DNA from: Candidatus Paceibacterota bacterium
GTDB lineage: Bacteria; Actinomycetota; Actinomycetes; Nanopelagicales; Nanopelagicaceae
Direction of reading: 5' to 3'
Length of the DNA: 64,000 bases
Assembly (NCBI GenBank): GCA_035530615.1
Contig: DATKUL010000002.1
Span: forward strand, 372,001 to 436,000
The notes below the pieces were generated by a model. The model saw nothing but the letters and a program-made list of their open reading frames with translations. It had not been told where the DNA came from and made no database searches. This document shows positions 15,049 to 22,587 of the stretch, piece after piece (positions within the stretch are counted from its first letter, which is position 1; every line of letters starts with the position of its first letter). The position numbers and the translations under genes are program-made.

Positions 15049-16206
15049 CTAGGGGAGCGCCAACATTCGTTCTAAGGCAATTTTGGAGAACTTCGCAACT
15101 TCCTCACTTACTTGAATCTGATTTACGAGGTGGCCACTGACGAGAGACTCCATGACCCAGACAAGGTGGGGGAGATCAATGCGATTCATGGTCGAGCAAT
15201 AGCAGACTGTCTTATCCAAGAACATGATGGATTTGTCAGGGTGATTTTTAGCAAGTCGAGAGACCAGATTGAGTTCGGTACCGATAGCCCACTGTGATCC
15301 CGCTGGAGCCGCTTCAATGGCGCGGATGATCATTTCAGTCGAACCAACAACATCGGCATGAGACACGACGTCATACTGGCACTCGGGATGTACGAGAATC
15401 TGAATGCCAGGAATTTTCTCCCTTACTTCATTGACTGTTTCCAATGAGAAGCGACCATGAACCGAACAGTGTCCCCGCCAGAGAATTATTTTTGCGTTTT
15501 TGATCTCCTCCGCTGTGAGTCCTCCCATGGGTTTCCAGGGATTCCAAAGGACACAGTCTTCCAACGAGAGCCCCAGGCTGAGAACTGCGGTGTTGCGTCC
15601 TAAATGTTGATCGGGCAGGAAAAGTACTTTCTCGCCTTGTTCTAAGGCCCAGGTCATTGCCCGTTTTGCATTGGACGAGGTGCAAACGGTGCCACCATTT
15701 TTGCCCGTGAAACTTTTGATTGCAGCCGACGAATTCATGTATGTCACAGGAATTGTCGAACCTGCGACTCCCAGATCTTCTAGAACTTTCCAGCAATCAT
15801 CGACTTGGTTCGCCGTGGCCATGTCTGCCATGGAGCATCCCGCAGCCAAATCGGGGAGAATAACTTTCTGAGCGGGAGAGGTAAGAATATCCGCGCTCTC
15901 GGCCATGAAATGCACTCCGCAGAAGATGATGTATTCCGCGCTGGATTGTGCGGCTGCGGCTTGCGCTAACTTGAACGAATCCCCCGTGATGTCCGCGAAC
16001 TCAATAACTTCATCTCGCTGGTAGTGGTGCCCGAGGACCAGCGCACGCGATCCAAGGGTTGCCCGCGCCGCGCGCGCGCGGGCGACGAGACTTGGATCGC
16101 TAGCCGCAGGGAGTTCGCCCGTACAGGAGACGCCTCGCTCGCTGCTTAAGTCTGCTTCACGGCCAAAGTTTAAGAGGTCTAGTAGAGCCACGTCCGTATT
16201 CTCCAC
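15049..16206 (-). CDS. nadA: Quinolinate synthase
   Basis: NadA condenses iminoaspartate with dihydroxyacetone phosphate to quinolinate, the first ring-forming step of NAD synthesis, using a [4Fe-4S] cluster. The 385-residue protein has the three cluster cysteines in CGVHFMAES, VCTSSNAKR and the C-terminal CYCSTMNRI segment, plus GHHYQ near residue 60. The start is a GTG. nadB and nadC, often clustered with nadA, are not in the window. The divergent neighbour encodes an iron-sulfur carrier, so the gene sits beside a possible cluster donor. Confidence 0.94.
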   Translation of the reverse strand: MENTDVALLDLLNFGREADLSSERGVSCTGELPAASDPSLVARARAARATLGSRALVLGHHYQRDEVIEFADITGDSFKLAQAAAAQSSAEYIIFCGVHFMAESADILTSPAQKVILPDLAAGCSMADMATANQVDDCWKVLEDLGVAGSTIPVTYMNSSAAIKSFTGKNGGTVCTSSNAKRAMTWALEQGEKVLFLPDQHLGRNTAVLSLGLSLEDCVLWNPWKPMGGLTAEEIKNAKIILWRGHCSVHGRFSLETVNEVREKIPGIQILVHPECQYDVVSHADVVGSTEMIIRAIEAAPAGSQWAIGTELNLVSRLAKNHPDKSIMFLDKTVCYCSTMNRIDLPHLVWVMESLVSGHLVNQIQVSEEVAKFSKIALERMLALP

Positions 16207-16293
16207 GCTTTTATGGCTACGCGCGAGTTCATTCTGCGTGTGAGGGTGGTAGCGGGTAGGCTCTTCCAGTACGCAAAAGAGGAGAGAATGAAT

Positions 16294-16650
16294 ATGAGCA
16301 CTGAGACAACCACTCCGATAACAACCAGCACGATCCAGTTGACTGATATTGCCGCTGGCAAGGTGGCAGCTCTATTGGCGCAAGAGGGTCGCGATGATTT
16401 AGCTCTTCGGGTCGCGGTTCAACCCGGCGGTTGTTCAGGGCTGCGCTACCAGCTCTATTTTGACGATCGCGACATGGAAGGTGATTCCACTCATGTTTTT
16501 GGCACAGTGAAGGTTATCGTTGACAAAATGAGCGATCCTTACTTAGCCGGCGCAACGATTGATTTTGTCGACACCATCGAAAAGCAGGGGTTCACGATAG
16601 ATAACCCCAACGCCGGTGGTTCCTGTGCCTGCGGAGATTCATTCCATTAA
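16294..16650 (+). CDS. erpA: A-type iron-sulfur cluster insertion protein
   Basis: A 118-residue A-type carrier (ErpA/SufA family) that delivers Fe-S clusters to apo-proteins. The three ligand cysteines are present: Cys47 in GGCSG and Cys111/Cys113 in SCACGDSF. The frame is open to 16213, but the GGAG at 16281-16284 fits an ATG at 16294 with nine-base spacing better than the ATG at 16288. It is followed 30 bases later by the PfkB kinase gene, as in mycobacteria. Clients here could include NadA, the Rieske protein and LipA. Confidence 0.9.
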   Translation: MSTETTTPITTSTIQLTDIAAGKVAALLAQEGRDDLALRVAVQPGGCSGLRYQLYFDDRDMEGDSTHVFGTVKVIVDKMSDPYLAGATIDFVDTIEKQGFTIDNPNAGGSCACGDSFH

Positions 16651-16680: not shown

Positions 16681-17673
16681 ATGAAAATCGGTGTTGCTGG
16701 TTCGGTGGGCCGAGATCATTTGATGACCTTTCCCGGCAAATTTACGGATTCCCTGGTTGCCGGTTCGCTTGAGAGTGTTTCCCTATCCTTTCTAGTAGAT
16801 GGACTTGATATTCGGCGCGGGGGATGCGCGGCAAATATTGCCTTCGGAATGGGAGTTCTCGGACTTAATCCAATCCTTATAGCCGCGGTTGGCACGGATT
16901 TTGAAGACTACGAAGCATGGTTGACACGTCATGGCGTGGACACTTCGCACGTGTTGGTTTCTGAGACTCTTCTCACCGCGCTGTACATGGTGACAACTGA
17001 TACTGAGCTCAATCAAATTGCCTCATTCTTTCCGGGTGCGATGAGCGAAGCACGAAATATCGAGTTGGCGCCCATAATGGATAAGACCGGGAAACTCGAC
17101 CTTCTGGTGATTTCACCTGATGACCCCGAAGCCATGTTGCGTCATTCCGAAATTGCCAAGCGCGAAGGCATTCGGATCGCGGCGGACCCTTCTCAGCAAA
17201 TGGCTCGAATGAGCGGGGAAGAAATCAAGAAGTTAATTGACGGGGCGGCCTATTTATTCCTTAATGAGTACGAGTTAGCCCTGGCTAGTCAGAAGACAGG
17301 TTGGAGTGATGGAGAGATTCTCGATCGGGTTGAGGTCCGAGTAGTCACGCTCGGCTCTAAAGGCGCGAAAGTCGAGGAAAAGGGTCAGGAAACCATCACC
17401 GTGGGGATTGCCCAGGAGAAGTCCAAGTTGGATCCCACCGGGGTCGGTGATTCCTTTCGAGCTGGGTTTATTGCCGGGCTCGCATGGGGACTGAGTCACG
17501 AGCGTTGTGCCCAACTTGGCTCAATGCTGGCAACCTATGTCATCGAAACTAAAGGTACGCAGGAGTATCGCTTTACGAGGGAAGAGTTCTTGGAGAGATT
17601 TGAAAAGGCTTTCGGTGCAGAAGCTACTGCAGATGTAAGCGAACACCTCGTCCACTTTGGATTCGATTCTTAA
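16681..17673 (+). CDS. PfkB-family carbohydrate/nucleoside kinase
   Basis: A 330-residue ribokinase-fold kinase. It has the Gly-Gly substrate-lid region (RRGGCAANIAFGMG, near residue 43) and the C-terminal PfkB signature DPTGVGDSFRAGF (about residues 250-262), with the catalytic Asp in GVGDS. In mycobacteria the gene at this position (beside the ErpA-like gene and ctaC) is an adenosine/carbohydrate kinase; the exact substrate here is not shown by sequence. Probably co-transcribed with erpA. Confidence 0.88.
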   Translation: MKIGVAGSVGRDHLMTFPGKFTDSLVAGSLESVSLSFLVDGLDIRRGGCAANIAFGMGVLGLNPILIAAVGTDFEDYEAWLTRHGVDTSHVLVSETLLTALYMVTTDTELNQIASFFPGAMSEARNIELAPIMDKTGKLDLLVISPDDPEAMLRHSEIAKREGIRIAADPSQQMARMSGEEIKKLIDGAAYLFLNEYELALASQKTGWSDGEILDRVEVRVVTLGSKGAKVEEKGQETITVGIAQEKSKLDPTGVGDSFRAGFIAGLAWGLSHERCAQLGSMLATYVIETKGTQEYRFTREEFLERFEKAFGAEATADVSEHLVHFGFDS

Positions 17674-17706: not shown

Positions 17707-17916
17707 TTAGTGCCCTTTTGTCACTTTGAATTGCGTTGGTCCAATCTCTTCAACCGTATTGCCAGTCATCCGCGCCCACGCGTGAAGATCTGGCTTCGTT
17801 GCTGGGTCATCGGCCAGTAAAACCAAAGACTCGCCTTCCTTGAGGCTTTTTAGGGCTTTGGCAGTGTGAATAATGGGAAGTGGGCACCGGGTTCCGAGGC
17901 AATCAACTACTTTCAT
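17707..17916 (-). CDS. TusA-family sulfur carrier
   Basis: A 69-residue TusA/SirA-fold protein. The sulfur-carrying cysteine is Cys11 in the RCPLPI motif, with a second Cys6 nearby. Such proteins accept persulfide sulfur and hand it on, for example to tRNA thiolation or molybdenum cofactor enzymes. Its ATG overlaps the stop of the desulfurase-like gene by four bases, so the two are made together. In Streptomyces relatives the two domains are fused in one protein; here they are separate. Confidence 0.9.
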   Translation of the reverse strand: MKVVDCLGTRCPLPIIHTAKALKSLKEGESLVLLADDPATKPDLHAWARMTGNTVEEIGPTQFKVTKGH

Positions 17917-18992
17917 GATCCACGTAAATCTCTGACCGCTTCACGAATCGCGGTGACAAGAGCCGAAATCTCCTCCTGCGTGGCGCCATGGTGAAGAGTG
18001 ATGCGAATATTTCCGTGAGTGAGAAGTCCCATGGCGGCAAGTACGTGGCTCGGCTGCAGATCATCGGCAGTGCAAGCAGAACCAGAATCTACTGAGAAGC
18101 CAGCTACCTCGAGTCGGCGTAGCAACTCTTCACCCTGCACGTACAGAAATGAGAATGAAGTGATGTTGGGTAACGATGATTCAAGATCTCCAGCGATGTC
18201 GCAATCTTCAATCGAGGCGCGAATTTGCGCTCTTAATTCTGCGCTAAGTTTGCGAAGTCGCGCCTTCTCCCTTTCTTCATTGCCGGACCACTCCTCAAGG
18301 GCAACCGCGCTGGCGATGAGCAGAGGCAAGGAATATGACTGTGGTGTTCGAAGGTGGTTTAAATGGGGCAAAGGGTTGCGCCAGTTGGCTCCTTCGTGAA
18401 TAAGTAAGAGCGATACGCCTTGCGGCCCCTGCCAGGACCTTGCATCAAAAATGGCAGTGTCCCATCGCGCTGGAAGGGGCACCCGGGTGCCCGATACCGT
18501 GAAATCGCAGGCAATTCTGGCTTTAGGTGCATGGGTGATGAGGGTTTCGAGATCCTGCACGACTCCGGTTTCGGCGTTGGCACCCTGTATGGCCCACACG
18601 AGTTGCGCATCCTGAGGGAGGGAATCGGGGAGAATGTGGCCAGCCGGATCAACCTGCAATTCTTGGGCTTGCCCATGGTCTCGAGCAATGGTGATGACCT
18701 CCTTCCGATCCACGCTGGAGAAGAGGAGCGTGTCTGTGGGGTGTAGCAGGCCGACAATGGCGAGGTAGGGGGCTAGCCCTGGTTCTCCCAGGATCTCAAT
18801 CTCAGAAGGTCGTACATTCAGTCCTGCCGCCAGGGAGTCCAGGGCCGAATTGAGCAGGATTCGCGCTCGCGCCGAGTGTTGGGAGAGCTTGTGGGGATCA
18901 TGCCAGCCCTGGTTCAGGGCATCCGTAAGGGCATCGGCGACCAGAGGAGAGAGAGGGGATTCTGAGAGAAAATTCCTGGTGAAGTCAGCCAC
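17913..18992 (-). CDS. Cysteine desulfurase-like protein lacking the PLP lysine
   Basis: A 359-residue class-V aminotransferase-fold protein. It keeps the mobile-loop cysteine (Cys307 in SGSACTADDLQPSHVLAAMGL), the ANAETGVVQ segment and the Asp that holds the PLP ring nitrogen (ACDFT). However the SxHK motif is replaced: the aligned positions in FDARSWQGPQG are Arg185 and Ser186, so the Schiff-base lysine is gone. The usual TSGGTEAN phosphate loop reads LGEPGLAP, and the PLP-stacking His is an Arg in SSVDRKEV. Ordinary desulfurase chemistry is therefore unlikely. The gene is intact, starts at a GTG with a leaderless promoter, and overlaps tusA by four bases. It may be a scaffold or persulfide relay; that is inference. 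Confidence 0.85.
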   Translation of the reverse strand: MADFTRNFLSESPLSPLVADALTDALNQGWHDPHKLSQHSARARILLNSALDSLAAGLNVRPSEIEILGEPGLAPYLAIVGLLHPTDTLLFSSVDRKEVITIARDHGQAQELQVDPAGHILPDSLPQDAQLVWAIQGANAETGVVQDLETLITHAPKARIACDFTVSGTRVPLPARWDTAIFDARSWQGPQGVSLLLIHEGANWRNPLPHLNHLRTPQSYSLPLLIASAVALEEWSGNEEREKARLRKLSAELRAQIRASIEDCDIAGDLESSLPNITSFSFLYVQGEELLRRLEVAGFSVDSGSACTADDLQPSHVLAAMGLLTHGNIRITLHHGATQEEISALVTAIREAVRDLRGS

Positions 18993-19005: not shown

Positions 19006-19038
19006 CCCCCACTTGCAAGCCAGATCGAAATGCCCCAC

Positions 19039-19044
19039 TATCCT
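19039..19044 (+). promoter_or_regulatory. -10 hexamer of ctaC (TATCCT), leaderless type
   Basis: TATCCT ends seven bases before the ATG at 19052, and the C-rich spacer contains no ribosome site. Confidence 0.55.
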
Positions 19045-19051
19045 TTACCCC

Positions 19052-19810
19052 ATGTCTTTGGAGCCCCGCACCCGAAACGCACATCTTGTGCGCAATCTTG
19101 CCCTGTTAATTCCCGCGCTTGTTCTCTTATCTGGCTGTTCCATTTCTGGACTCGGCTTCGAAAAGGGAGTTTCCAGCGTGAACGACACATCGATGACGCT
19201 CTGGCAAGCAGAGTGGATTACGGCGGGAGTCGTCGGCGTATTTACCGCAGGGCTTATTTTTTGGTCGGCCTTTTTCCACCGGAAGAAGAACGAGGAGTTT
19301 CCGAAACAAACTCAGTACCACATCCCAATCGAGATCGCTTATACCCTGATTCCGTTTATTATCGTCGCCGTATTTTTTGCAATGACAGCTCGCGATGAAT
19401 CTAAAATCACCTCTAAGTCGACGACGGGTGTTGCACACAATATTTCTGTCAATGGAATTCAGTGGTCCTGGCAATTCGGATATACCGAAGCAGGCGAGAA
19501 GGCTGTTGTGACAGGAACGCCTGGAAAGGCGCCGATTCTCTATCTTCCACAAGGCGAAAAAGTTCGTTTCACCCTCACCTCAAGTGATGTAGTGCACGGA
19601 TTCTGGATTCCGGCATTCATGATTCAAATGCAGAATTTGCCCGGAGTTACGAATCATCTGGAATTCACCGCCAACAAACTTGGTGACTATCCAGGTCGGT
19701 GCAACATTCTCTGTGGGCGCGATCACTCGCGAATGTTATTTACGGTTCGCGTCGTTACTCCTGCGCACTATCAGGATTACCTCAATACCTTGAAGGCGAG
19801 TCTGTCATGA
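19052..19810 (+). CDS. ctaC: Cytochrome c oxidase subunit II
   Basis: A 252-residue lipoprotein-type subunit II of the aa3 oxidase, carrying the CuA centre that receives electrons from the cytochrome bcc complex. The signal peptide ends in a lipobox LLSGC (Cys29). Two TMs follow (about 50-72 and 95-115), then the cupredoxin domain with the ligands His in VVHGFW, Cys217, Cys221, His225 and Met228 ([12 protein letters not shown]). I choose the ATG at 19052 over the upstream TTG at 19013 because of the leaderless promoter. The stop overlaps the ctaD start (ATGA). Confidence 0.95.
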
Positions 19811-21918: not shown

Positions 21919-22587
21919 TTACTTAAGGGTTGATAGGTACTTTAGGTATTCCATTTCGGTTACAACCTGAACTGATAATTTCATCCCTGCATGTCCTCTT
22001 CCGCATTGGATATTGCATGCACCGGGGAATATTCCGGCTTTTTCAGCCATGATGTCTATTCTCCCAACAGAATCGGGTGAAGCTTCTTTGTCAATTCCAA
22101 GTCCAGGAATCCAAAATCCGTGTGAGACATCATTTGATTTCAGATTGATATGGACAAGTTTGCCTTGAGGGATAAACAGAACCGCGGAATGAGAAGAATC
22201 GGAAACGAGCACGGAGTTGGTTCCATCAAGTTGATAGGTGAATGACCAAGACCACGCCACGCCCTTTGCGTTGACCGTGTATTCGCTCTGAACCACTGGA
22301 ATTGCGGGGGAAGTTTGACTCTTGGATGGTGTTGGCTTAACACTGCCCGCTGAAGTAATTGGCGCGGGTGTTTTTCGCGTGGTTTTAGGTTTTACCTTCT
22401 TCTGCCAGATCAAATTCTTTCCGCTTTTGACGCACTTCACCTGAACCGCACCGGATTTGGCAATCGCGCCTACTTTGACACATCTAGTGCCCGGTGAGTT
22501 GGTACCCACCGCATAAGAAAATGGAGTGAGGCCGGCTAATGCCAACGCCAATGCAGCACCCATGGCTATAGTGGGAAGGCGTTTCAT
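21919..22587 (-). CDS. Secreted stand-alone CuA (COX2-like cupredoxin) protein
   Basis: A 222-residue exported protein: a signal peptide (residues 1-26, ending SYA), a region with two cysteines (CVKVGAIAKSG..VKCVKSGKNLIWQKK) often found after actinobacterial signal peptides, a Lys/Pro/Thr-rich linker, then a COX2-type cupredoxin domain. All classical CuA ligands are present: His156 in VSHGFWIPG, Cys191, Cys195, His199 and Met202 (CNIQCGRGHAGM). It lacks the two TMs and lipobox of CtaC. It lies convergent to ctaF. It may carry electrons or copper for the oxidase, or be a nitrous-oxide-reductase-like electron carrier; no partner is visible. The promoter is leaderless. Confidence 0.85.
   Translation of the reverse strand: MKRLPTIAMGAALALALAGLTPFSYAVGTNSPGTRCVKVGAIAKSGAVQVKCVKSGKNLIWQKKVKPKTTRKTPAPITSAGSVKPTPSKSQTSPAIPVVQSEYTVNAKGVAWSWSFTYQLDGTNSVLVSDSSHSAVLFIPQGKLVHINLKSNDVSHGFWIPGLGIDKEASPDSVGRIDIMAEKAGIFPGACNIQCGRGHAGMKLSVQVVTEMEYLKYLSTLK

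Follow-up and report, generated by a model that had tools for sequence, protein, structure and literature searches.

Recurrent loss of the Schiff-base lysine, with retention of the mobile-loop cysteine, in a TusA-linked cysteine desulfurase homologue of actinobacteria

Introduction

Cysteine desulfurases are regarded as PLP-dependent, and annotation assigns them by their fold. The PLP Schiff base of Escherichia coli IscS involves Lys206. The K206A variant of this enzyme has no desulfurase activity and still holds some PLP (PMC9978102). Another IscS residue, Cys328, hands persulfide to the sulfur acceptor TusA (PMC2854127). IscS proteins that lack the Schiff-base lysine have been described from Archaeoglobus fulgidus and Methanosarcina acetivorans (IscS1), and the A. 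fulgidus protein is reported to lack desulfurase activity, with a possible role as a cluster ligand (PMC7585200). Desulfurases can also be joined to sulfurtransferases, as in the CD-Rhd fusion of Pseudorhodoferax, which is an active desulfurase and carries a rhodanese rather than TusA (PMC8931425). Our literature search on the actinobacterial desulfurase-TusA pair found no study of it.

Here we describe such a pair from a 64,000-nucleotide stretch of actinobacterial DNA (the window), which lies on a 2.16-Mb genome that is 100% complete in three contigs. A first-pass annotation of the window had proposed that a desulfurase homologue operonic with tusA had lost its PLP lysine and might serve as a PLP-free persulfide relay or scaffold, a new use of the fold. 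The archaeal proteins cited above had already been described as Lys-less, which weakens the claim of novelty.

Results and Discussion

The gene of interest (17913-18992, minus strand) starts with GTG and codes for a class V (NifS/IscS-like) protein of 359 amino acids. Its frame contains no internal stops in the ORF reading, in agreement with the first-pass view that it is undamaged. The protein matched the Aminotran_5 profile (5.8e-13), the NifS profile (2.3e-34 over residues 13-356, with bit scores below the NCBIfam equivalog cut-offs) and IscS chains in the PDB (2e-23, residues 7-356). This full-length homology places it in the NifS/IscS group of the class V aminotransferase fold. The tusA gene (17707-17916, minus strand) codes for 69 amino acids from an ATG that overlaps the stop of the upstream Lys-less gene as ATGA. 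Its product matched Pfam PF01206 (5.8e-19) and has an intact CPxP motif, read as CPLP, so the overlap and motif reported earlier are both present. It is the only TusA of its genome.

Two neighbours are kept across the class: a divergent ctaC gene for cytochrome c oxidase subunit II (19013-19810, plus strand; start codon provisional) and a convergent pfkB-family kinase gene (16681-17673, plus strand). Beyond the kinase lie a gene for an A-type Fe-S carrier of the ErpA/HesB type (16213-16650, plus strand) and the adjoining nadA (15049-16206, minus strand). The Lys-less gene had been credited with its own promoter. We found no sigma-70-like sites upstream of it, and it is separated from the divergent ctaC by a short spacer common to both genes. 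Beside ctaCDF, on the opposite strand (21919-22587, minus strand), a further gene codes for another protein of 222 amino acids that carries a COX2 periplasmic domain (PF00116).

The protein was aligned to E. coli IscS, using a reference that differs from the K-12 record only at residue 392. Lys206 aligns with Ser186 (codon 18435-18437; all codons here are on the minus strand), and the preceding His205 with Arg185 (18438-18440). The PLP-stacking His104 is replaced by Arg96 (18705-18707), at a position where all 52 readable members of the family to which the window belongs (the window family) carry Arg or Lys. Thr76 of the PLP phosphate loop is Gly72 (18777-18779), and the loop reads LGEPGLAP where IscS has TSGATESD. 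Gln183 is replaced by Val166, and Ser203 by Asp183 (18444-18446); the latter position is Ser in all 38 Lys-bearing orthologues and Asp in 45 of the 54 window-family members. Three residues are kept. Asp180, which contacts the PLP ring nitrogen, corresponds to Asp163 (18504-18506) and is present in 54/54 window-family members; Arg354 corresponds to Arg330; and Cys328 corresponds to Cys307 (18072-18074), within a mobile-loop motif of the SSGSAC type that reads DSGSAC. Measured against a PLP-dependent cysteine desulfurase, the protein thus lacks the Schiff-base lysine, Thr76, His104, Ser203 and His205, and retains Asp180 and the mobile-loop cysteine. The alignment bears out what the first-pass annotation had read from the sequence about the lost lysine, the two replaced histidines, the missing phosphate loop and the surviving cysteine.

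A substitute for the lysine was ruled out. No other lysine occupies the Schiff-base position in the family alignments, and the Lys-less proteins share no invariant lysine. Lys35 is the sole lysine-rich column of the window family and is Arg in other families. AlphaFold2, run on the window protein with a two-sequence input (one homologue), gave a mean pLDDT of 40.8, too low for a usable model.

The window protein has in common with A. fulgidus IscS (PDB 4EB5) and M. acetivorans IscS1 an IscS-type fold, a replaced Schiff-base lysine (Asp in A. fulgidus) and a kept loop cysteine. However, A. fulgidus IscS pairs with IscU and in our alignment keeps a TSGATEAN phosphate loop and the stacking histidine, whereas the window protein has lost most of the cofactor site, is partnered with TusA and belongs to a group in which the loss recurs in many lineages.

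Our counts cover 119 orthologues sampled across the class, 54 from the window family and the rest from other families. The sampled genes lie opposite ctaC and before the pfkB kinase gene, often with the A-type carrier gene and nadA beyond. We treat them as positional orthologues because they share this ctaC/pfkB synteny, and the same conservation rules out a paralogue or a misassembly. The Schiff-base lysine is kept in 38 of the 119 and missing from 81, which comprise all 54 window-family members and 27 proteins from other families. By these counts and by the tree described below, loss of the lysine in related actinobacteria is family-wide and recurrent and no local accident. The first-pass annotation described relatives as Lys-bearing desulfurase-TusA fusions. 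This description suits Streptomyces-like families, but not the 81 Lys-less proteins, and in many cases tusA has an ORF of its own that overlaps the upstream gene. The Lys-bearing pairs and fusions (family f19 is a Streptomyces-like example) are orthologous to the window pair, with the same ctaC/pfkB locus and the same Cys-loop block; they differ in keeping Thr76, His104, Ser203, His205 and Lys206, and in some of them a single ORF covers both the desulfurase and TusA.

The cofactor site and the cysteine loop have followed different courses. Retention of Thr76, His104, Ser203, His205 and Lys206 together was 0.97 in Lys-bearing proteins versus 0.02, 0.03 and 0.18 in the Lys-less groups. For the Cys-loop block, the corresponding values were 1.00 versus 1.00, 0.97 and 0.97. 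The loop cysteine is present in 119/119 orthologues, and Cys307 is among the 9 of 348 columns that are invariant across all Lys-less proteins. The Lys-less proteins also keep Asp180 (79/81), Arg354 (78/81) and Glu156 (all). Pairwise dN/dS within the window family was mostly 0.07-0.18, with or without TusA, a rough estimate in which many dS values are saturated; by this measure the window-family pairs are under purifying selection. The open frames and dN/dS values rule out a pseudogene. A scan of viral contigs found one relative, at 28% identity. One draft genome (G031) contains two divergent Lys-less copies (L023 and L051), both accompanied by tusA and ctaC. Because L051 clusters with a different genus, this genome may be a mixed bin.

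The direction of change is likely to be loss, since homologues outside the class keep the lysine. On a tree computed after removal of the active-site columns (200 bootstraps), we counted about nine irreversible losses (7-12 over the 200 bootstrap trees), and parsimony gave 6-7 changes. The exact number is soft because the starred branches alone force only two. Losses were also found in 4-Mb genomes. One protein from family f34 (L089) has Met at the lysine position, canonical His104, Ser203 and His205, and Ala in place of Thr76, consistent with decay that is able to start close to the lysine. These comparisons show, at the level of sequence, that the ancestral gene at this locus coded for a Lys-bearing desulfurase with a link to TusA, that the Schiff-base lysine and the remaining cofactor site were lost repeatedly, and that strong constraint persisted on the loop cysteine and the block around it. 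Four stages coexist: lysine with TusA, no lysine with TusA, neither lysine nor TusA, and no gene. Nine genomes of one genus (g16, in the window family) gave no match at E 1e-28. The whole gene is cleanly gone from the eight of them with a fetched region (L146-L153), where pfkB abuts ctaC and the order erpA, pfkB, ctaC is unchanged.

A tusA gene is adjacent to, overlaps or is fused with the Lys-less gene in 51 of 81 cases, and CPxP is intact in all 51 (and in 86/86 linked TusA copies overall). In many window-family genomes, several of them single-contig, the Lys-less protein is kept and TusA was found nowhere in the genome. Complete TusA-less genomes keep the Lys-less protein, and therefore TusA cannot be its general function; TusA as the sole function is ruled out on the same ground.

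Comparing window-family members with and without TusA revealed, post hoc, a C-terminal patch that tracks the partner. The patch comprises Ser281-Phe-Leu283-Tyr284 (18141-18152, minus strand) and Leu324-Thr325-His326 (18015-18023, minus strand). Within the window family, S281-x-L283-Y284 and L324-T/S325-H326 are near-invariant in proteins with TusA and scattered in those without. Across all orthologues, the LY pair occurs in 86/86 proteins with adjacent TusA versus 3/33 without, and L324-[TS] in 78/86 versus 1/33. Among the Lys-less proteins, LY is found in 51/51 with TusA and 3/30 without. Outside the family of discovery the counts are 56/56 and 2/9 (Fisher p 5e-8, kinship ignored). In a phylogenetically corrected test, a small one with five independent pairs taken from supported branches, every pair showed the same direction or no difference (p 0.06-0.25). 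The patch follows the presence of TusA, not the lysine, and Lys-bearing orthologues have it too. These patterns suggest that SxLY/LTH is a candidate TusA-docking site retained by the Lys-less proteins. E. coli IscS-TusA (PDB 3LVJ) is likewise a desulfurase-fold protein with TusA as its sulfur acceptor, but it is PLP-dependent, and its contact residues for TusA (Trp45, Glu49, Asp52 and Arg220) are neither conserved in the window protein nor specially conserved in the orthologues. We dropped these contacts as a docking site for that reason.

Our preferred reading, to which we give slightly less than an even chance, is that the window protein is a former NifS/IscS-type desulfurase that now acts as a PLP-free persulfide relay and owes its retention to the mobile-loop cysteine. 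The host has an iscS-mnmA-ligA cluster and a set of suf genes whose order, judged by eye from the ORFs, is sufB, D, C, S, U; the IscS and SufS of this genome are Lys-bearing. Sulfur donors therefore exist, and persulfide need not be made by the Lys-less protein. We favour a PLP-free relay because of these host systems and because K206A IscS is inactive and the Lys-less A. fulgidus IscS is reported to be so. The Lys-less protein would be unable to desulfurate cysteine; Cys307 would be loaded with sulfane sulfur by SufS, by IscS or by a low-molecular-weight persulfide. A TusA docked near the SxLY/LTH patch, in genomes that have one, would take this sulfur over on its CPxP cysteine, and in TusA-less relatives the loop cysteine would have to serve another acceptor. 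We put forward with slightly greater reserve the broader idea that a PLP desulfurase has been converted, recurrently and under selection, into a PLP-free persulfide carrier that would perform thiol-persulfide exchange only and dock TusA or another acceptor. The relay or scaffold suggested in the first-pass annotation is partly supported and fits better than the alternatives, given that the PLP site is gone and the loop cysteine and TusA-correlated patch are strongly constrained. What has changed is its setting: the loss is recurrent rather than a single oddity, and TusA is not the whole story.

An Fe-S scaffold or ligand role, in which the loop cysteine would ligate a nascent cluster on a partner such as SufU or the neighbouring A-type carrier, is unlikely but has a direct precedent in the Lys-less A. 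fulgidus IscS (PMC7585200). It would account for retention of the cysteine in the absence of TusA, and the A-type carrier gene lies two genes off in many loci. However, this carrier persists in genomes without the Lys-less gene, synteny alone proves no contact, and it is TusA, rather than a U-type scaffold, with which both the linkage and the patch correlate.

The near-complete retention of Asp180, Glu156 and Arg354 runs counter to a simple relay and could mean that a ligand still binds. Non-covalent PLP or another ligand might support altered chemistry, for example on cysteine persulfide via Arg330, Glu141 and His316, with Cys307 as the nucleophile. The PLP held by K206A IscS (PMC9978102) and the Arg or Lys at the stacking-histidine position of the window family are compatible with this. 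We nevertheless think it improbable: the phosphate loop and phosphate-contact residues are almost completely lost, and the Arg/Lys replacement is not general beyond the window family.

Two further explanations seem to us very improbable. An inactive regulatory or structural subunit, for example in a heterodimer with the Lys-bearing host IscS or SufS, could use its cysteine in trans, as the loop cysteine of IscS-type homodimers reaches the partner site of the other subunit (PMC2854127); yet the gene is unlinked to the host iscS and sufS genes, the protein is only 27% identical to its own IscS, and the TusA-correlated patch would be left unexplained. A relic of little function, from which the PLP site, then TusA and then the gene vanish in streamlined genomes, would match the coexisting stages, gene loss in the eight examined genomes included, but against it stand the losses in 4-Mb genomes and the fact that the gene has long persisted, in TusA-less lineages too, with a dN/dS of about 0.1 and its cysteine invariant.

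Roughly two in three sampled orthologues from this conserved actinobacterial locus cannot form the Schiff base, yet all keep the sulfur-carrying cysteine. This cautions against a desulfurase annotation for Lys-less genes. The natural series, from lysine with TusA to no gene, lets sulfur mobilisation be separated from sulfur transfer, and SxLY/LTH offers a testable candidate patch for TusA docking. In families f5 and f34 (L049, L108, L113, L100, L109, L115 and L122), a leucyl/phenylalanyl-tRNA-protein transferase-like gene, read by eye, occupies the place of tusA between the Lys-less gene and pfkB.
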